A DNA stretch of 8,486 nucleotides from Bacillota bacterium (lineage in GTDB: Bacteria > Bacillota_E > Symbiobacteriia > JAMDAP01). The stretch lies in contig JAMDAP010000163.1 in assembly GCA_023484675.1 (NCBI GenBank), positions 1 to 8,486 of the forward strand. The letters run 5' to 3'. The notes under the pieces were generated by a model. The model ran no database searches, was not told the DNA's origin, and saw only the letters and a program-made list of their open reading frames with translations. The position numbers and the translations under genes are program-made. Of this stretch, positions 1 through 8,486 are shown piece after piece (position 1 is the stretch's first letter; every line of letters starts with the position of its first letter).

Positions 1-415
1 CTGCCCGCGTCCGCGCCTCCCGGGGACCGCAGAGGCGGTTGACCAGCAGCGGTTCTGCCACCAATTCGCCCACGGTCATCCGCGGGTTCAGGGAATCGTA
101 TGGATCCTGGAACACCATCTGCATATGCCGTCGCCGCTGGCGCATCTGCTCGGAGGAGAGGCGGGACAGATCGTTGCCCTCGTACAGAATGCGACCGCCG
201 GTGGGCTGCTCCAGCCGCAGTACCAAGCGGCCGATGGTGGATTTGCCCGAGCCGGACTCGCCCACCAAGCCCAGGGTCTGACCCGCCGGGATGCTGAAGC
301 TCACGCCGTCCACTGCCCGGAGCATGACGTGCCTGCGCCAGCCGGAGCGAACCGGATAATGTTTCTGCAAGTCCTCAACCCGGAGCGACTCCGCCGTCTC
401 CACTGCCTGGCTCAC
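1..415 (-). CDS. dppF: Peptide ABC transporter ATPase, DppF/OppF-like (partial, 3' end beyond window)
   Basis: This is the second nucleotide-binding subunit of the dipeptide/oligopeptide importer; it hydrolyses ATP on the cytoplasmic face to drive uptake. Only the first 138 codons are present, and the frame stays open to the left edge. Visible features are the family N-terminus ([13 protein letters not shown], residues 11-23), Walker [10 protein letters not shown] (residues 52-60) and a Q-loop [17 protein letters not shown] (residues 101-117), which is typical of the DppF/OppF subgroup. The signature motif, Walker B and H-loop lie outside. I chose the GTG at 415 because its GTGA overlaps the TGA stop of the preceding ATPase (412-414) and GGGAGGTGA (420-428) sits 4 nt upstream, so the two ATPases are translationally coupled. 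The dppF/oppF distinction cannot be made from this part, and the substrate is unknown. Confidence 0.95.
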
Positions 416-1386
416 TCCGTCACCTCCCAGCGGTGGCAGCTCACCAGATGACCCTGACCGATGGACTCCTGAATGGGCGGCCCCTCCTTGCAGCGGTCCA
501 CCGCGTAGGCGCAGCGGGGGTGAAAGGGGCAGCCGCTCGGCCGGCGAAGCGCGTCGGGCACGTTGCCCGGAATGACCGCCAGCTCATCCCGAACCCCGAT
601 CCGGGGACGGGATTTAAGCAGGCCGATGGTGTACGGATGCCGGGGACGCTCAAAGATCTCAGCCACCGGCGCCATCTCCACGATCTCGCCGGCATACATG
701 ACCGCAATGGTGTCACACAACTCGGAGGCCATGCCCAGGTCGTGGGTGATGATGATCTGGGCGGTGCCGGTCTGATTCCGCATCTCCTTGAGCAGCTGGA
801 TGATCTGGAACTGGGTAGTTACGTCCAGCCCGGTGGTGGGCTCGTCGGCGATCAGCAACTTGGGCTTGCACGAAAGTGCCAGGGCGATCATCACCCGCTG
901 ACACATGCCGCCGGAGAGCTGGTGCGGATATGTCTTCATCCGGCGTTCTGGTTCGGAGATATGCACGGCCGTCAGCAGGCGAATGGCCTCATTATGGGCG
1001 GCGGCCCGGTCCAGGCCCCGTCGGTGAATCAGCACTTGGGTCAGCACCCGGCCGACGGTCAGCACCGGGTTCAGGGCTGATCGGGGATTCTGAAAGATCA
1101 TGGCGATCTCCGTGCCGCGGACCCGGGCCATCAGGTCCTCGCTCAGCGGGACCAGGTCACGGCCGCCCAGCAGAACGCGGCCACCCACGATCATTCCCGG
1201 CGGCTTGAGAATGCGCATGACCGAGGCGCCACTCACCGACTTGCCGGAGCCTGTCTCCCCGACCAGCCCCATGATCTGGCCGGGCATCAGGTCAAAGGAC
1301 AGCCCGTCCAGAACCTTGACCACACCCTTCCGGGTGTAAAAGTAAGTGCGCAGATCCTGGACCGACAGGAGGGGTTGCTGGGTCAC
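412..1386 (-). CDS. dppD: Peptide ABC transporter ATPase, DppD-like
   Basis: First nucleotide-binding subunit of the peptide/nickel-family importer, 324 aa, usual length. It has Walker [12 protein letters not shown] (about 40-50), Q-loop [11 protein letters not shown] (about 97-107), signature LSGGMCQRV (157-165), Walker [13 protein letters not shown] (177-188) and H-loop ITHDLG (about 213-218). The C-terminal oligopeptide-transporter extension carries four cysteines (about 286, 292, 299, 317; CPFHPRC...C...C), the pattern seen in family members proposed to bind an iron-sulfur cluster. The signature has Cys where the family usually has Arg (LSGGMRQRV), probably tolerated. I chose the GTG at 1386 because TAGGGGG (1394-1400) lies 7 nt upstream; the in-frame GTG at 1392 would leave only 1 nt. 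The gap after the permease stop (1398-1400) is 11 nt, and its own stop overlaps the next ATPase start. Substrate is not predictable. Confidence 0.95.
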
Positions 1387-1397
1387 AACCACACCCC

Positions 1398-2300
1398 CTA
1401 TTTACGGCGGGGGTCCAGGACGTCCTGGAGCCCGTCACCGATGAGATTGAAACCGAGAACTGCGACAGCGATTGCCAGGCCGGGGAAGGTGTAGGTCCAC
1501 CAGTGTCCCTGTAAGAACTCTTGCAAGCCCATGCTGATCATGAGCCCCCACTCCGCCGTGGGCACCGGCACGCCCAGGCCGATAAAGCTGAGGCCGGCAG
1601 CCTCCAGGATGGCCCAGCCCGATTGCAGCGTGGAGGTGACCAGAATGGGACCCATGGCGTTGGGCATGAGGTGCCTGAGCAGCACCCGGCTGGGCGGATT
1701 GCCTGCGGCGACAGCCGCCATGGCGAACTGCGACTGTTTCAGGGAGAGGATCAGATTGCGGGCGAGGCGGGCGTACCCGGGGATGTTGAGCGCTGCCGTG
1801 GCCACGACGACCGTCTTCAGACCTGGGCCCAGTGCAAACGCGACGGCCATGGCGAAGATGAAGCGGGGAAAGGCCTGCAGGATGTCCATCAGCCGCATCA
1901 AGGTCTCGTCCACCAACCGGCCGGAATACCCGGCCACCGCACCGATCAACGAGCCCGTCACCGCGGAGGTGGCCACGGCAGCCACGGCAATGAACAGATC
2001 CAACCGGGCCCCGTAAATCATCCGCGACAGGATGTCGTACCCGAAGAAGTCAGTACCGAAGGGGTGTCCCGCACCCGGCGGAAGATTGGAGGCACCAGGG
2101 TCCAGAGCATACGGATCCCGGGGTGCGAGCCAGGGCGCAGCAACGGCCGCCACCACCAAAGCCAGGACGATGAACAGACCCAACATGGTGGTCGGATTGC
2201 GGCGCACGACCCACCACATCTCCGCCCACCGATCCTCCGGTGGAGCTGCCTCTTCCTCCAGGTCGGGAGGCGGCAACTGTGATCGAATTAGATCGCTCAT
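1398..2300 (-). CDS. dppC: Peptide ABC transporter permease, DppC-like
   Basis: Inner-membrane permease of the importer, 300 aa. A charged cytoplasmic N-terminus (residues 1-35) precedes the first membrane segment (about 38-56). The family motif HPFGTDFFGYDILSRMIYGAR (79-99) is clear, followed by membrane segments near 102-124, 145-170, 215-238 and 270-290, and the conserved end DVLDPR (293-298). The cytoplasmic coupling (EAA) loop is at 191-213, QFAMAAVAAGNPPSRVLLRH then LMPN. The Gly and the RH.MPN tail are kept, but the glutamate of the usual 'EAA' is Met194. The start ATG (2298-2300) overlaps the stop of the preceding permease as TGATG, a classic translational coupling. It ends 11 nt before the ATPase gene. 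Family assignment is firm; the substrate is unknown. Confidence 0.95.
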   Translation of the reverse strand: MSDLIRSQLPPPDLEEEAAPPEDRWAEMWWVVRRNPTTMLGLFIVLALVVAAVAAPWLAPRDPYALDPGASNLPPGAGHPFGTDFFGYDILSRMIYGARLDLFIAVAAVATSAVTGSLIGAVAGYSGRLVDETLMRLMDILQAFPRFIFAMAVAFALGPGLKTVVVATAALNIPGYARLARNLILSLKQSQFAMAAVAAGNPPSRVLLRHLMPNAMGPILVTSTLQSGWAILEAAGLSFIGLGVPVPTAEWGLMISMGLQEFLQGHWWTYTFPGLAIAVAVLGFNLIGDGLQDVLDPRRK

Positions 2301-3316
2301 CAGAATTCCACCCGTGGGTCCAAAATGGCGATCAGAAGGTCAACGATCAGATAGAGCACGACATACATGAAGGTGACGAGGAGGATAAACCCCTGAATGG
2401 CCGGGAAATCGGCGGCCAGGATGGCGTTGTACGCGTAAAGGCCGAGGCCGGGCCAGGAAAAGACCAACTCCACCAGCACCTCGCCGCCGAGGATGTAGCC
2501 GAACACCGCAGCCACCATGGTGATGACCGGCAGCATGGCGTTCTTCAAGGCGTGATCAAAGATGATCAGGCGGCGGGGGAGCCCCAGGGCCCGTGCCGTG
2601 CGCACATAGTCGGACTCCAGCGCCTCGATCATCGAGGACCGGGTGATCCGCGCCAGCGGCGCCATCGCTGTGAAGGCGATGATAAAGACTGGCAGGACCA
2701 GGTGCTGGACCACGTCTTTGAAGACGGCCCAATCACCGGTCAGCGCCGAGTCCACCAGGTCCAGGCCGGTCACGGGCGGCGGTGCGGATAGCATCGTGTC
2801 GATGCGCCCCATGGGCGCCGGAAGCCAGTTCAGCCTGACGAAGAACACCTGAAGCAGCACCAGGCCGAGCCAGAAGATGGGCATACTCACGCCCAACACA
2901 CTGATGATGCGGCCCAGTTGGTCTACCCAGCTGTCCCGGTACGCAGCGCTGGCCACGCCCAACGGTATCGACAGGACGATGGCGACCAGCATGCCCAGGA
3001 AAGCCAATTCAAACGAGGCGCCGAACCGTTCTCTGAGGTCCTTGGCCACCGGTTGGGCGCTAAAGTAGGAGTCTCCCAGGCTACCGGTGGTAACCAGGTC
3101 CCGCACATAGATGTAAAACTGGGTGTGGTACGGCTTGTCCAGGTGGGCAGCGGCCTTCATCTCGGCTACCTTCTCCTTGCTGGCATACGGTCCGGCTACT
3201 CGTTCGATGGGGTTTCCCGGCACAATCCTGGTCAGCATGAAGGCAATGAAGGTAACGCCCAGCAGGACGGGAACAATCAGCAGCAGGCGGCGCAGGCTGT
3301 AACGCAGCAGGCGCAA
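2300..3316 (-). CDS. dppB: Peptide ABC transporter permease, DppB-like
   Basis: Partner permease of the importer, 338 aa from the chosen start. The N-terminus MRLLRYSLRRLLLIVPVLLG and then TRIVPGNP (29-36) is the standard DppB opening. Membrane segments fall near 10-28, 105-125, 137-160, 204-222, 262-283 and 308-332. The coupling loop is intact (EALESDYVRTARALG at 231-245, then HALKNAMLPV), and the end AILDPR (330-335) is conserved. I chose the TTG at 3316 because AGGAGGGG lies about 7 nt upstream and homologues start here. The ATG at 3334 (six residues longer, MRRGSR) lacks a good ribosome binding site, and its first codons would be the Shine-Dalgarno itself. The frame stays open to 3538, but that part overlaps the binding-protein gene and has no membrane-protein character, so it is not coding. 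The stop overlaps dppC. Confidence 0.93.
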   Translation of the reverse strand: MRLLRYSLRRLLLIVPVLLGVTFIAFMLTRIVPGNPIERVAGPYASKEKVAEMKAAAHLDKPYHTQFYIYVRDLVTTGSLGDSYFSAQPVAKDLRERFGASFELAFLGMLVAIVLSIPLGVASAAYRDSWVDQLGRIISVLGVSMPIFWLGLVLLQVFFVRLNWLPAPMGRIDTMLSAPPPVTGLDLVDSALTGDWAVFKDVVQHLVLPVFIIAFTAMAPLARITRSSMIEALESDYVRTARALGLPRRLIIFDHALKNAMLPVITMVAAVFGYILGGEVLVELVFSWPGLGLYAYNAILAADFPAIQGFILLVTFMYVVLYLIVDLLIAILDPRVEF

Positions 3317-3340
3317 TCGGGAACCCCTCCTCATACCCCC

Positions 3341-3428: not shown

Positions 3429-5108
3429 CTACTTTTTGTCCAGGTACCAGAACCGGAGGAGTTCGTCGTTGAGGTAGGCGTACCCCTCGATGTTCTTACG
3501 CATGGGCACGTTCCAGGTGGGCTGCACCAGGTAGACATGCGCTACGTCGTCTGCCAAGATCTTTTGGATCTCCTTGGCCGCCCCTAGCCGGCCGGCCTCG
3601 TCGGTGTTCAAGGTCCACTGCTTGATCATCTGGTCCACCCGGGCGTTCTTATAGTGGTTGTAGTTGGTGGGGCTCCCTGACCCGACGATCCAGCTCAGGT
3701 GATAGAACGGGTCGTTCACCCAGCTGATCCAGTAGTCCAGCCACATCTGGAGCTTGCCGCCCTGCTGCAGTTCGTTGAACTGGGCGTACGGGAGCTTCTC
3801 CACTGTCACGTTCAGGCCGATGGCCTTCAGGTTGTTGGCGATGTACACGGCAGCGCGCTCATCTTCCTCCCGGGCCACCTGCACGGTCAGCTTCACGGGC
3901 GGCAGACCCTGTCCGTTGGGGAATCCGGCCTCGGCCAGCATTTGTTTGGCCTTCTCAAGATCGGTGTTGTAGGTCCAGGGTGATGGATCGTGGCCAGGCA
4001 TTCCCTTGCCGATCAGGGACATGGCGCGGAGGGCGTAGCCCTTGTACACGTCCTTGACGATGTTGTCGTACGGGACGGCGTAAGCCACGGCCTTGCGTAC
4101 CTTGACGTTGTCAAAGGGCGGGGTGCTGAAGTTCATCTGCAGATACCCGACCCGCGGCGTCTCCACCGACAGTACCCGGAGGTTCGGATCCTGCTTAAGG
4201 GCGTCCAGCTCCTTCACCGGTGGGTCCTCGACGATGTCCACGTCGCCCTTCTTCAGCAGCAGCAGCCGCTGCGTGGCGTCAGGGATGATCTTGAGGATGA
4301 CCTTATCGAACTTGGGCTTGCCTTGCCAGTAGCCGGGGTTCGCCTTCAGGACGATGCGATCACCTGGCTTGTACTCTTCCAGGATGAAGGGCCCATTGCC
4401 GGGGGCAAGGTTCTTCTTGAAGTAGTCGGTGGCCCACTGGTCCGAGCTGGTGGCGTGCGCCTGGACGTCGGAGAGCCGGATAGACGAGGTGTTATGCATG
4501 ATGTTGTTCATGCGCACCAGGTTGTTGGGCACATCCATCCGAATCTTTACCGTGTACGGGTCCACAACCTCAAAGTAGTCCGGCTTCATGACGCCGCCCA
4601 TGGTCAGGAGCCAGTAGGAAATGCCCTTGGCCTCAAAAATGCGCCGGTAGCCATTCACCACGTCCTGCGCCGTCATTTCCTTGCCGTCGGAATACTTGAC
4701 CCCGTGTCGGAGGTGGAAGAGGATCGCTTTACCGCCGTCCACCACCTCGGTCTTCTCTGCCAGCATCGGCTGGATCTTACTCGTGTCCACGACCCAGTAC
4801 TGGTAACTGTCCGGGGTCGTAACTGCCTTCAGAGCGTACTGCTCCAACTGGTCGAAGGTGTTCTGGATGACGGTCTGCGAGGTACGGGTACCCACGGTGA
4901 AGGCCGGGTCAAAGGTGTCGATGTCACCCGGGAAGGCCACCACCAGGACCTTCTCCTTGGGCTGCTGGGTCTGCGCACCGCTTCCCGACTGAGACTGGGA
5001 TGTACCAGACGAGCTTTTATCCTTTGTGCTGCAGCCGGCCACTACCCCTGCCAGCATGACAAGGGCGAAGGTCATGGCCGCGATCCGGCGGAACAGTGCT
5101 CGGTTCAC
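3429..5108 (-). CDS. Substrate-binding lipoprotein of peptide/nickel ABC importer (SBP family 5)
   Basis: Extracytoplasmic solute receptor of the importer, 559 aa, typical for family 5 (DppA/OppA type). It starts with a lipoprotein signal: VNRALFRR, a hydrophobic stretch, and lipobox VAGC with the lipidated Cys at residue 26. A Ser/Gln/Gly-rich linker follows (about 32-49). The mature domain opens with LVVAFPGDIDTFDPA (about 55-69) and has the family signature FHLRHGVKYSDGKEMTAQDV (131-150). I chose GTG at 5108 because it gives a proper signal peptide with AAGGAGGGG (5118-5126) upstream. The in-frame GTG at 5189 would add 27 residues without signal character. It lies 90 nt after the HyuA-like gene and 112 nt before dppB, the two widest gaps in the operon, consistent with separately tuned expression. 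The ligand is unknown; family 5 also binds nickel, heme, sugars and cyclic compounds, so 'peptide' is only a family label. Confidence 0.95.
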   Translation of the reverse strand: MNRALFRRIAAMTFALVMLAGVVAGCSTKDKSSSGTSQSQSGSGAQTQQPKEKVLVVAFPGDIDTFDPAFTVGTRTSQTVIQNTFDQLEQYALKAVTTPDSYQYWVVDTSKIQPMLAEKTEVVDGGKAILFHLRHGVKYSDGKEMTAQDVVNGYRRIFEAKGISYWLLTMGGVMKPDYFEVVDPYTVKIRMDVPNNLVRMNNIMHNTSSIRLSDVQAHATSSDQWATDYFKKNLAPGNGPFILEEYKPGDRIVLKANPGYWQGKPKFDKVILKIIPDATQRLLLLKKGDVDIVEDPPVKELDALKQDPNLRVLSVETPRVGYLQMNFSTPPFDNVKVRKAVAYAVPYDNIVKDVYKGYALRAMSLIGKGMPGHDPSPWTYNTDLEKAKQMLAEAGFPNGQGLPPVKLTVQVAREEDERAAVYIANNLKAIGLNVTVEKLPYAQFNELQQGGKLQMWLDYWISWVNDPFYHLSWIVGSGSPTNYNHYKNARVDQMIKQWTLNTDEAGRLGAAKEIQKILADDVAHVYLVQPTWNVPMRKNIEGYAYLNDELLRFWYLDKK

Positions 5109-5169
5109 CTGAGTATTCCCCTCCTTAGTTGTAGTCACGGTAAGACAAGTACCGGGGTTGGAGCCGGAT

Positions 5170-5180
5170 ATCACCTCCTT
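5170..5180 (-). promoter_or_regulatory. Orphan perfect Shine-Dalgarno sequence upstream of the binding-protein gene
   Basis: The minus strand reads AAGGAGGTGAT, a full 11-nt complement of the usual 16S rRNA 3' end. No ATG, GTG or TTG lies at a usable distance downstream. The binding-protein start (5108) has its own site, AAGGAGGGG, 46 nt further on. A frame from the near-cognate ATC at 5169 runs 14 codons to a TAA abutting that second site, but ATC is a very poor start and spacing is short. It may be a ribosome standby site, a relic of an older start, or a leader peptide. Confidence 0.55.
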
Positions 5181-5198
5181 GAAGGCCACCCTGCCGAA

Positions 5199-6617
5199 TC
5201 AGCGTGTGACAGCTTTGCCGGATACGAGCGCCTTGGCGGTGACCTTGGCGCTAACCCGCAGGGTGTTGCCCGGCAGATACGTCAGGGTAGCTTCATCAAG
5301 CCTGGCCACCTCCAACGTTGCCGGATCCGCCCCGGCCTCCACCGCAAACTTTCTGGCTCGGCGGATGGCGTCGGCCTGAGCGCCCTTTCGAGTCCATCGG
5401 TCCAGGGAGTATACCAGATCCGCACGCCCGCCCACCGGGGCCAGGGCGGCACCCACCGCTGTGCAGTGTGGTGCCAGCGCCGGACGGGTCAACCCGGTGG
5501 TCCCGCGCAGGCGGCTGGGGACTTGATCCGCCAGCGGCCCGGCACAGACCACAGGCATGGGATCCGGACGGCCGCGCACCCGGTCCAGGGCCAGTTCCAC
5601 CCGCTCCAGCACCTCAGGCGAGAGAGCCGTGCCCGGCGAGATCTGTGCTGCGACGGAAACCGTGTCCGGCTGCGGGATGCTCACGCGCACACCCGCCAGT
5701 TCGCGGGGCGAACTGATCTCGCCGGGAAAGTCGTTCCTGACCAGCCCGCCATCGATGCCAGACTCCCGGCACAGCAAGACGGCACAGTCGGACAGGCCGG
5801 AAAGGTGGGCGGCCCCACGCAGCCCGTGGCCGGTGGCGCACCGTGCGGTCAGGATCGGAAATCGTGCCGCCACCTGGAGAGACATGAGGGTGCCGTCGTT
5901 CTGAGCCATAAAGACCGGGCTGGTGATGCCGAGCCGGGTCAGTACCCGGGTGGTGGTTTCGGCGGCCCGGGGGCCCACGTGGACCAGAGCTGCGTTCAAA
6001 ACAGTGCCGTTCTCCCGTTCCACCAAGCCGATGCTGCCCAGCCAGTGGGAGAGGGCGAGGGGAAAGGCAGGGCCCAGGGCCTCGGTCAGTGCAGCCGCCA
6101 GGTGGATCTCCTGCATCGGATGCACCGGCGAGAACACACCGGTGATGGCGGCCGCCTCCAGTTTCTGCCGCCGGATCTCGCTGACCAGCCGGGCTACCGC
6201 CTGATCGTCCGGCTCCGGACCGATCGTCCGGCCGTCCAGCTCGAAACCACCGGTGAGTTCAAAGATCGCCCCTCCGACCGCCATTTGCAGGTCCTCCGGC
6301 CAGTCCAGCAGGGGAGGTATGGCGGTACCGGCCGGCGACGCCAGACGGATCACCGCCACCCGGGCCAGGCCGCGTCGCTCCTGCAGGGCGGCGCGGCAGT
6401 GGTCGCTGACCAGCACTGCGTAAAGGACATCCGCCGGGCCAGCGGCGCACTGGTCGAGAATCTGGCGCACAGCCTCCTCCACCGATGCAGAAGGGCGATC
6501 CGGATTCACCGGCACCGTGACCCACGCCCGGATGGTGCGGTACTGGTCCATCAGCACGGACCTAGTTTCGAGCGCATCCAGTTCAAGGCCCAACACGTAC
6601 GACGCCAGAACCGTCAC
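5199..6617 (-). CDS. Hydantoinase/oxoprolinase (HyuA)-family protein with degenerate nucleotide-binding motifs
   Basis: Family members are ATP-dependent amidases that open hydantoin or 5-oxoproline rings using an actin-like fold. This 472-aa protein has the whole scaffold: an N-terminal region (PPLLDWPEDL, ITGVFSPVHP), the second-domain hallmark SHWLGSIGLVERENGT (190-205), QNDGTLMS (239-246), RGAAHLSGL (267-275) and the C-terminal YLPGN (447-451). The glycine-rich motifs are replaced at equal length. The usual DVGGTNTDA is ELDALETRS (12-20), SGPTNS is CATGHG (260-265), DVGGTTTDVG is LCRESGIDGG (282-291), and GGGS-type loops read AQISPG and CAGP. The frame is uninterrupted, so this is not simple decay. 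I infer it is inactive as a standard ATPase or has a changed role. I chose GTG at 6617 (GGGGAAG 3 nt upstream, 35-nt overlap with the DUF917 gene); ATG 6674 or GTG 6596 are possible. Confidence 0.85.
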   Translation of the reverse strand: MTVLASYVLGLELDALETRSVLMDQYRTIRAWVTVPVNPDRPSASVEEAVRQILDQCAAGPADVLYAVLVSDHCRAALQERRGLARVAVIRLASPAGTAIPPLLDWPEDLQMAVGGAIFELTGGFELDGRTIGPEPDDQAVARLVSEIRRQKLEAAAITGVFSPVHPMQEIHLAAALTEALGPAFPLALSHWLGSIGLVERENGTVLNAALVHVGPRAAETTTRVLTRLGITSPVFMAQNDGTLMSLQVAARFPILTARCATGHGLRGAAHLSGLSDCAVLLCRESGIDGGLVRNDFPGEISSPRELAGVRVSIPQPDTVSVAAQISPGTALSPEVLERVELALDRVRGRPDPMPVVCAGPLADQVPSRLRGTTGLTRPALAPHCTAVGAALAPVGGRADLVYSLDRWTRKGAQADAIRRARKFAVEAGADPATLEVARLDEATLTYLPGNTLRVSAKVTAKALVSGKAVTR

Positions 6618-7743
6618 CGCCTTCCCCAGCGCGCCCGGGCCTGTCCAACGGCTGATAGTCGATGTCGTATCCAAAAGAGCGTGGCCCCACGCATTTTAGA
6701 GCCTGGGGCGTCTGCATGATTTCGGGGACAGGTATGCCCAGCACGGCCACATGCTGCCCGCAGGCCAGGGTGTCAGCGTGCAGGGGCTGCAGCGTCTCGG
6801 TGTCCAGCATGGTAATCAGGTCCGGTACCGAGACCACCACCTTGCCTTCCGACTCCGCCTGGAGGAACTCATTCTGAAACTGGACCTGCAGGTGCCGCCC
6901 GTGGCGGCAGCGGATCTGGGCGGTGCCAAAGGCGTACCTCGGCGCCCCGATGGCGCCTGACTCGGTCTCGGCAGCTGTCCGGTAGAGTTCCACCACCTGG
7001 CCCCGGCAGAGCAGCCGCATCGGCCCGTAAGTGGAGTTGCTGGTGACCTCATTGATGGCAGAGAGGATGTCGTCCAGGCGGGGCGCCGCCCTGCGCATAT
7101 GCTGACCGATGCGGAGGGCGAGGGAGACGGTGCCCAGCACGGCGGTCTCCTTCAACTGGGCACCCAGCATCGGGTAGCCGGCCAAATGGGCCACCCCGCC
7201 CAACCCCTGGGCGGCGCCGCGGGCCAGGTGCTCCAGAGTATGGTTGTCCGCCGCCCGAATGATGATCACATCGCCCGGCTCGTTCACCAGCACAAAGGGG
7301 CAGCCTTGCACGCCGTAAATGCCAAAGCTGACCATCTGCAGATCCGGAAAGGCCCGGCCGAACCCGTCGGCATCCACCAGGGGCAGCCCGGCCGCGGCAG
7401 CGGTCGCTACGGCAGACAGGCAGTTGCGTCCGCCCACCTCCACCGGAACCAGGGCTTCTGCCTGGCGCCCCAGGTGCTCTTGGAGCGCTTCCAACGCGGC
7501 CAGTAGTGTCTTTTCGCCCGGCAGTTTCTCATCGAACACGGCGGGAGACCCCATGAAGGCCACGGAGATGACCAGCGCCTGGTCCGCCAGTTCGTAAGGG
7601 GCCAGGAGCCTCACCGGGCCGTGCTTGCGCACCGCCTGCAGCGCCACCAGGGCACCCAGGTACGTATCGCCTCCACCACCCGACCCCAAAATGGCAGCCC
7701 CCCGCTCCAGGTCTCGCACCGCCTGTTCGTCCAACCAGACCAT
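6583..7743 (-). CDS. DUF917 (S-Me-THD) family protein
   Basis: Members of this family (Pfam DUF917, now named after S-methyl thiohydantoin desulfurase) are commonly encoded next to, or fused with, HyuA-type hydantoinases; their biochemistry is poorly defined. The 386-aa protein has the glycine-rich loop GSGGGGDTY (20-28), PVEVGGRN (100-107), VDADGFGRAFPDLQM (123-137), FQNEFL (289-294), VPDLITMLD (306-314) and the family end FGYDIDYQPL (357-366). A 20-residue Gly/Arg-rich tail follows and overlaps the next gene in another frame. I chose ATG at 7743 because GGAGGAG (7751-7757) sits 7 nt upstream, and the alternative ATG at 7791 lies inside the sigma-54 promoter, upstream of the predicted transcript start. 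It is the first gene of the operon. Unlike its neighbour, all recognisable motifs are intact. Probably a cytoplasmic hydrolase-like or metal-binding partner; exact reaction unknown. Confidence 0.93.
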   Translation of the reverse strand: MVWLDEQAVRDLERGAAILGSGGGGDTYLGALVALQAVRKHGPVRLLAPYELADQALVISVAFMGSPAVFDEKLPGEKTLLAALEALQEHLGRQAEALVPVEVGGRNCLSAVATAAAAGLPLVDADGFGRAFPDLQMVSFGIYGVQGCPFVLVNEPGDVIIIRAADNHTLEHLARGAAQGLGGVAHLAGYPMLGAQLKETAVLGTVSLALRIGQHMRRAAPRLDDILSAINEVTSNSTYGPMRLLCRGQVVELYRTAAETESGAIGAPRYAFGTAQIRCRHGRHLQVQFQNEFLQAESEGKVVVSVPDLITMLDTETLQPLHADTLACGQHVAVLGIPVPEIMQTPQALKCVGPRSFGYDIDYQPLDRPGRAGEGGDGSGVVRVGP

Positions 7744-7779: not shown

Positions 7780-7796
7780 AGCAAGAAACATGCCAG
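7780..7796 (-). promoter_or_regulatory. Sigma-54 (-24/-12) promoter of the operon
   Basis: The minus strand reads CTGGCATGTTTCTTGCT. Compared with the consensus TGGCAC-N5-TTGCW it differs only at the last base of the -24 box. The GG (7793-7794) and GC (7781-7782) dinucleotides are separated by exactly 10 nt, as sigma-54 requires. Transcription should start near 7768-7770, leaving about 25 nt of leader with the GGAGGAG ribosome binding site before the ATG at 7743. A sigma-54 activator gene lies immediately upstream, which strongly supports the call. Confidence 0.9.
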
Positions 7797-7852: not shown

Positions 7853-7927
7853 TTTCTCGAATTGGAATGAGAAATGAGAAAACGCTTTCTCGCCTATCCG
7901 TTCCAGAACGGCGTTTTCTCATTTCTC
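7853..7927. promoter_or_regulatory. Probable upstream activator site (enhancer) for the sigma-54 activator
   Basis: A perfect 17-bp inverted repeat, GAGAAATGAGAAAACGC (7869-7885) and its complement (7911-7927), is separated by 25 bp. The unit GAGAAA or its complement TTTCTC occurs six times: 7853-7858, 7869-7874, 7876-7881, 7886-7891, 7915-7920 and 7922-7927. Two tandem copies with a 7-bp period occur in each arm, and GAGAAA-N4-TTTCTC forms a compact dyad at 7876-7891. A separate dyad CCGTTC-CA-GAACGG (7898-7911) lies between the arms. The centre (7898) is about 130 bp upstream of the predicted start site, the usual distance for enhancer-binding activators. The AT-rich run stands out against the GC-rich background. 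The activator encoded at 8064-8486 is the likely ligand (inference). Confidence 0.8.
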
Positions 7928-8063: not shown

Positions 8064-8486
8064 CTATTCCGCAGCCCGAGAATTCTCATTCTCCATCCGC
8101 TGCAGCCAGCGGTAGAGGGTAGCCAGGCTGATGCCCAGTGCTCTGGCGGCGGCCCGCTTTCCCTCGGTGGTGTTGCCGTGGCTGCTGAGCAACTCCCTGA
8201 CCCGGGCCAGGTCCACCCGCAGCCCCCCGGCACGTGAGGTCCGGCGCACAGGCGGATACCGCTGTGGGGCAGCCTCCCCCGTAACGGGGGTTCTGCCCGC
8301 CCCAAGGGAGCGGGCGTCCACGGACCTGCTCTGCGGTGCTGCGCCGGAGTCCGGCACCGGCTGCCACTGCCGCAGGTGGGGCGGCAGGCTGTCCATGGTG
8401 ACCAACACCCCCTGCTCCAGACTGACCACGTACTGGATGGTGTTCTCCAGCTCGCGCACGTTCCCCGGCCAGGGATAGGCATGGAG
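8064..8486 (-). CDS. Sigma-54-dependent transcriptional activator, C-terminal part (5' end beyond window)
   Basis: The last 140 residues of an enhancer-binding protein enter from the right edge. They begin with the end of the AAA+ sigma-54 interaction domain, YPWPGNVRELENTIQYVV (residues 4-21 of the fragment), the near-invariant motif of this family. A variable Pro/Arg-rich linker follows (about 45-85). The Fis-type helix-turn-helix has the form ARVRELLSSHGNTTEGKRAA then ARALGISLATLYRWL (about 91-125), resembling clostridial activators of amino-acid catabolism. The GAFTGA loop, Walker motifs and N-terminal sensor domain lie outside, so the signal is unknown. It reads in the same direction as the operon and stops 267 bp upstream of the promoter. 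It probably binds the repeat array at 7853-7927 and activates the promoter at 7780-7796. Confidence 0.95.
   Translation of the reverse strand, partial: LHAYPWPGNVRELENTIQYVVSLEQGVLVTMDSLPPHLRQWQPVPDSGAAPQSRSVDARSLGAGRTPVTGEAAPQRYPPVRRTSRAGGLRVDLARVRELLSSHGNTTEGKRAAARALGISLATLYRWLQRMENENSRAAE

Follow-up and report, generated by a model that had tools for sequence, protein, structure and literature searches.

A short HyuA-like protein without the ATP-binding motifs of its family, encoded beside DUF917 in a Bacillota transport operon, is probably a non-ATP partner of DUF917

The stretch of DNA analysed here (8,486 nucleotides, contig JAMDAP010000163.1 of assembly GCA_023484675.1, from a Bacillota bacterium; hereafter the window) encodes on its minus strand, in this order, an activator, a DUF917 protein, a short HyuA-like protein and the components of a dipeptide-type ATP-binding cassette (ABC) transporter. 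The short HyuA gene (5199..6617, minus strand, GTG start at 6617) overlaps by 35 bp the gene of its DUF917 (S-Me-THD) partner (6583..7743, minus strand, 386 amino acids, aa). The original prediction, made from the letters of the window, held the former to be a HyuA-family protein whose nucleotide-binding motifs had been rewritten at constant length while the fold was kept, and proposed a role for it beside an intact DUF917 partner.

The reading frame is uninterrupted over 472 aa, with G+C fractions of 0.73/0.53/0.79 at codon positions 1/2/3 and of 0.70-0.84 at the third position in 9/9 pieces of 50 codons. Since third-position G+C is high overall and in every piece, the gene appears to be coding, in agreement with the open frame originally described. 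Against Pfam the protein passes the Hydant_A_N cut-off (41.5 bits vs 25.2) and fails that of Hydantoinase_A (15.8 bits vs 22.9). NCBIfam gave zero matches at E <= 0.001, Rfam nothing above the gathering score, and a sequence search of solved structures a single weak match. In the AlphaFold2 model (predicted local distance difference test, pLDDT, 93) the HyuA fold is retained overall, which together with the Hydant_A_N score bears out the claim of a kept fold. Structural comparison of the model gave its highest Z among the matches listed (26.8) with 5l9w_b, Apc-alpha' of acetophenone carboxylase.

The motifs were compared with those of 160 other HyuA proteins, a set biased toward close homologues because 156 were drawn from the best-listed protein-search matches, the other four being canonical neighbours or relatives. 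In 160/160 of these the first phosphate motif carries D, G, T and D and the second D, G and G. The second glycine of the first motif is present in 158; the exceptions, P0041 and P0091, are full-length HyuA proteins with this one glycine altered (S and K). Both motifs (DxGGTxTD and DxGGT) are absent from the window protein. At the phosphate-1 position (6558..6584) ELDALETRS replaces DVGGTNTDA, with 0/4 of the invariant residues kept, and in the alignment with canonical HyuA LCRESGIDGG replaces DVGGTTTDVG at the phosphate-2 position (5745..5774). SDHCRAA stands at the TTHATNA position (6387..6407), CATGHG at the CGPTNS position (5823..5840) and AGPLAD at the VGGGSV position (5526..5543), all on the minus strand. 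The replacements noticed by the original prediction do therefore sit at aligned motif positions. Codon 5748-5750 (residue 290, in LCRESGIDGG) encodes G in the window and V in P0001, which otherwise differs from the window protein only in its start residue, and in 4/5 other members of the clade described below; because the near-identical P0001 carries V, G290 may be a polymorphism or a read error.

The loss exceeds general divergence and is specific to the motifs, since motif columns are kept far less often than equally conserved columns elsewhere. Of 26 motif columns with a conservation of at least 95% among the 160, the window protein keeps 5, vs 59/82 equally conserved columns outside the motifs; for the six members of its clade the average is 22% of the motif columns (4 to 9 each), vs 70% of the 82 others. 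At equal divergence, set at 0.52 identity outside the motifs, identity of the phosphate-1 motif is 0.28 within the clade vs 0.97 in 2,167 sampled canonical pairs.

Length is not constant, and here the original prediction, which had described an alignment without gaps, has to be corrected. The window protein has 472 aa vs 512-537 in the 160 others, and an internal deletion of about 60 residues (site at 5598..5648, minus strand, equivalent to residues 316-384 of canonical P0055) has removed the GGGS/adenosine segment. Between GGGS and the long helix that follows it, the window protein has 16 residues vs 71-87 in 160/160 canonical proteins, so that rewriting at constant length is rejected. The same stretch measures 15-17 residues in the six clade members and P0001, 14 in short forms of Geobacillus and Parageobacillus and 19 in a short form of Rhodococcus. 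Two strands and three helices that the segment contributes to the canonical model are missing from the window model. The deleted segment aligns to that which bears the adenosine motif GANPGP (358-363) in CapA of caprolactamase.

Five clusters (P0002-P0006; identities of 46-86% in alignment A2) retain, like the window protein, no more than isolated letters of the motifs. A tree built without the motif and deletion columns places the six on one side of a branch (support 100/99), which upholds motif loss as a character of a clade; that this clade appears small is the outcome of two protein searches that scored about 8,000 candidates and listed the best 120 matches. Neither of the findings that would have refuted the original prediction was obtained: the five closest homologues of the window protein all share the loss, and the tests made speak against a decaying paralogue. 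Fifteen sites at which the clade is fixed and differs from the canonical proteins are scattered between residues 72 and 453.

Named relatives are found on plasmids. The window protein matched 132 plasmid records, with the short form in two among the 20 matches listed. In Parageobacillus thermoglucosidasius (L003) the genes of a sigma-54 activator, DUF917, short HyuA, cytosine permease, DUF917 and canonical HyuA follow one another, and the order is the same in L005 and in Geobacillus L014. The short forms of these plasmids (WP_012820765.1 and WP_181727837.1, from Geobacillus and Parageobacillus, named ‘hydantoinase/oxoprolinase N-terminal domain-containing protein’) share the deletion with the window protein, and their loci share with it the sigma-54 activator, an exact sigma-54 site and a DUF917 partner of the same clade. 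They differ in keeping 20/26 motif columns (DVGETNTDA, VGGGG) and, for the L003 copy, in passing Hydantoinase_A (57.8 bits); their loci also differ, in the cytosine permease and canonical pair downstream. Transporter genes thus lie beside short HyuA in the window and in three annotated plasmid records, as the proposed link to transport would have it. In Rhodococcus JS3073 (L004, 5055-10395) a canonical HyuA/DUF917 pair is divergent to a DUF917/short HyuA pair, on very long branches; this short form keeps 7/26 motif columns and narrowly misses Hydantoinase_A (22.5 bits vs 22.9).

The six motif-less proteins and the two plasmid short forms together also form one side of a branch (98/97), while the Rhodococcus form lies elsewhere in the HyuA tree on a long branch, both with motif and deletion columns removed. 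Dropping these columns gives two changes to the short form; keeping all columns gives one (support 86), with long branches meeting. An approximately unbiased (AU) test did not reject a single origin of the nine HyuA short forms (p 0.176), and for the DUF917 partners it rejected one clade for all eight (p 0.008, with a warning from the tool of long branches). The Rhodococcus protein is a possible second origin of the deletion. In the lineage of the plasmids and the window, the deletion appears to have preceded full loss of the motifs, because the plasmid short form has the deletion yet keeps 20/26 columns.

Selection was gauged by the ratio of non-synonymous to synonymous substitution rates (dN/dS; Nei-Gojobori) for one pair of plasmids, L003 vs L014. 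The ratio was 0.154 for short HyuA, 0.075 for canonical HyuA, 0.082 and 0.021 for the two DUF917 genes, 0.060 for the cytosine permease and 0.091 for the activator. The plasmid short HyuA is therefore under selection, less strictly than its neighbours, and the selection originally suggested holds for these relatives.

The DUF917 partner in the window matches the N- and C-terminal Pfam domains with 173.8 and 173.2 bits (cut-off 27; frame taken from 7791). It belongs to the same protein family as the S-methyl thiohydantoin and thiohydantoin desulfurases (NF058532, NF058529), yet fails both equivalog tests (79.8 bits vs 450 and 93.5 vs 440), so the desulfurase reaction is not assignable to it because its scores lie far under the cut-offs. 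DUF917 proteins are called experimentally uncharacterised, and suggested to be hydantoinases, in PMC11055893; some carry the name of thiohydantoin desulfurase in NCBIfam. The window copy keeps 53 of the 67 sites shared by at least 93% of 118 others. It is not plainly intact, as had been assumed, since the other 14 near-invariant sites are altered. P27, a proline in 118/118, is altered in 9/9 DUF917 proteins of the short-HyuA group, the neighbouring HyuA having been identified for seven of these nine (all but P0164 and P0168) and looked at for a minority of the 118.

The DUF917 tree has two types (support 100/98). Within one type the window DUF917 falls in a single clade (98/96) with four relatives and with the DUF917 proteins that accompany short HyuA on the plasmids; the Rhodococcus partner is of the other type. 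The window partner has thus co-diverged with short HyuA. Canonical DUF917/HyuA operons with two or three DUF917 genes are also seen (L019, L020, L021 and L022). In two of them a single canonical HyuA lies amid genes of both types: Haloferax L020 has one gene of one type and two of the other, and Nonomuraea L019 has one of each. In Rhizobium and Aminobacter both DUF917 proteins fall in one type.

Upstream of the DUF917 gene lies a sigma-54 promoter-like site, TGGCATGTTTCTTGCT (7780..7795, minus strand), an exact match to the sigma-54 consensus, for which 0.01 matches are expected by chance in the window. In L003 and L014 the DUF917 gene paired with short HyuA is likewise preceded by an exact match in the equivalent position; the Rhodococcus locus has no such site even at one mismatch. 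Six GAGAAA hexamers clustered about 60-130 bp further upstream (7853..7927), with a perfect inverted repeat of 17 bp, are a candidate activator-binding enhancer. Six of the seven GAGAAA copies in the window lie within 268 bp upstream of the promoter, and the matching stretch holds three in L003 and two in L014 (0.2 expected). Among 5,000 shuffles per stretch these counts were reached 0 times for the window and L003 and 32 times for L014; the count is descriptive only, because the hexamer was picked after both sequences had been viewed.

The activator gene is cut by the window end, leaving the C-terminal part of a sigma-54-dependent activator (8064..8486, minus strand). It owes this name to its similarity (38% identity across 134 aligned positions, E 9e-22) to the sigma-54 activator that is annotated next to the plasmid module; matches to the AAA lid and the Fis-type helix-turn-helix were both under the Pfam cut-offs. 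On the other side of short HyuA, likewise on the minus strand, follow a family 5 extracellular solute-binding lipoprotein (3429..5108, GTG at 5108; SBP_bac_5 326.5 bits, lipobox judged by eye) and, by profile matches, a DppB-like permease (2300..3334, ATG at 3334), a DppC-like permease (1398..2300) and an OppD/DppD-like ATP-binding protein (412..1392). Of a second transporter ATP-binding gene only the start, judged by eye, lies in the window, whose edge cuts it. A plus-strand open frame of 909 aa (3990-6719) runs across the solute-binding and HyuA genes and is probably a by-product of high G+C.

Further relatives were sought in several collections. Two short patterns scanned against genome contigs picked up a single relative, a canonical one from Marinicaulis; with so few patterns the scan says little on absence. 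Whole genomes were sampled within the phylum of Marinicaulis, where the family was matched in 12/50 genomes; in its class a match reached E <= 1e-30 in 48/385 genomes, no more than four candidates being scored in each. Among the matches listed from these phylum and class genomes none ran through the deletion as one stretch. Viral contigs held no relative, and phage records gave six matches, each of less than 60% identity. In open-access literature, judged by titles and the beginnings of abstracts under limited search wording, no description of this protein was found.

Among known systems the closest are the HyuA proteins of about 517 aa in DUF917/HyuA pairs (Hydant_A_N plus Hydantoinase_A), which share with the window protein the fold and the blocks RENxTxLNA, QNDGT, RGAA and YLPGN; the order of DUF917 then HyuA, as on Geobacillus plasmids, also matches. 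Unlike them, the window protein has lost the ATP motifs and about 60 residues and falls under the Hydantoinase_A cut-off. In PMC8453981 and PMC5214803, CapA of caprolactamase, HydA and 5-oxoprolinase are proteins of about 700 aa that keep DxGGTxTD and DxGGT and have a HyuB-type subunit as partner, again unlike the window protein. According to the same sources, HyuA of HyuA/HyuB-type systems activates a carbonyl with ATP and the partner finishes the hydrolysis, and the CapA substitutions D11A and D295A, in the two phosphate motifs, left 0.05% and 0.4% conversion (PMC8453981). Apc-alpha' resembles short HyuA in that its system holds it alongside another HyuA paralogue; it differs in having an ATP-binding module, as described in PMC5214803.

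We regard the window protein, with a probability of roughly 60%, as a pseudoenzyme of the HyuA (ASKHA) family with an ATP-free subunit role beside DUF917. Its catalytic residues are lost throughout a conserved clade under selection, as looked for in a pseudoenzyme, the figure for selection coming from the sister group alone. Since motifs and segment are lost, and CapA mutants in the phosphate motifs are nearly inactive, we infer that it would be unable to bind or use ATP in the way of its family. It is probably a non-ATP partner of DUF917 and not a broken gene, because close relatives share both the motif loss and the deletion. Short HyuA would be made together with the co-diverged DUF917 from a sigma-54-controlled transport operon, and would most likely be a structural or regulatory subunit of a DUF917 hydrolase, in the slot of the ATP-using HyuA. 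A complex of the two is presumed, as are the DUF917 reaction and its substrate; the pair may process a cyclic amide or thiohydantoin-like compound without ATP activation. In the plasmid relatives short HyuA may additionally join the adjoining canonical pair.

Several observations weigh against this reading. The canonical DUF917-linked HyuA do not read GxxPGP in the aligned segment, so that an adenosine role is ascribed to this segment by analogy with CapA and its relatives. The dN/dS ratio stems from one plasmid pair that keeps 20/26 motif columns, not from the window clade, and the six clade frames are full-length, yet protein databases would omit broken copies. The altered sites of the DUF917 partner leave its activity not assured, and no canonical HyuA/DUF917 pair lies within the 8.5-kb window. 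Finally, D72, R259 and H264, conserved anew in the old pocket, could mean a new activity and not a passive subunit.

The last point leads to the alternative ranked second, and judged improbable, that the old active site has become another ligand-binding or catalytic site (D72, R259, H264, P361), making the protein a sensor or an ATP-free enzyme. These four residues are identical in 6/6 clade members where T, A, N and G stand in 100%, 94%, 99% (159/160 for the N at residue 264) and 100% of the 160 canonical proteins. The motif-1 loop itself is variable in the clade (28% pairwise identity), and H264 is present in the Rhodococcus short form too. However, six sequences are few, the 15 clade-fixed sites are scattered over the protein, and the plasmid sister forms are without D72, R259 and H264. 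Ranked third, and also doubtful, is that short HyuA and its DUF917 join an ATP-using HyuA/DUF917 pair in a larger complex, in which they would be a regulatory or structural half; the three readings overlap. The canonical pair adjoins the short pair in three Geobacillus/Parageobacillus records and is divergent to it in Rhodococcus, and the plasmid records with the L003 short form at >=91.6%, eight in number, have at least two HyuA places in 8/8. The Haloferax and Nonomuraea operons also bring both DUF917 types together. The window's 8.5 kb nevertheless shows no canonical pair, and the single type in Rhizobium and Aminobacter argues that a two-type complex is not general.

A decaying paralogue heading for loss is very unlikely. 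Motif loss and deletion are its expected first steps, and the plasmid short form has a dN/dS about twice that of its canonical neighbour. This ratio is still 0.154, though, family-conserved sites are kept far better outside the motifs than inside, six proteins diverged to 46% identity keep their frame, the model is confident, and promoter site and operon are retained. Decay is set aside chiefly on the dN/dS of the plasmid relatives and the non-motif conservation, with the caveats that the former belongs to a sister group and that databases list no broken copies. An artefact of assembly or annotation is scarcely credible, as against the one residue that differs from P0001 the same deletion recurs in five other protein clusters and in plasmid records of Parageobacillus, Geobacillus and Rhodococcus described as complete.

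How the ATP-free subunit arose can be sketched tentatively, in a scheme more apt to be wrong than right. ATP would have been given up stepwise, first the adenosine segment and then the phosphate loops. The fold would have been kept in a protein obligately paired with a second type of DUF917, and D72, R259 and H264 would have been fixed as new pocket residues. An ATP-free version of an ATP-driven machine would then have emerged at least twice, in the plasmid/window lineage and in Rhodococcus.

The locus presents a conserved pairing of DUF917 with an ATP-less HyuA. Its forms represent two stages of the loss, and relatives with names are found on Geobacillus and Parageobacillus plasmids. Two questions thereby become open to experiment: the function of HyuA for DUF917 proteins, and whether only some substrates require ATP. 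It is also a warning that automatic names such as ‘hydantoinase/oxoprolinase’ may label proteins without an ATP site.
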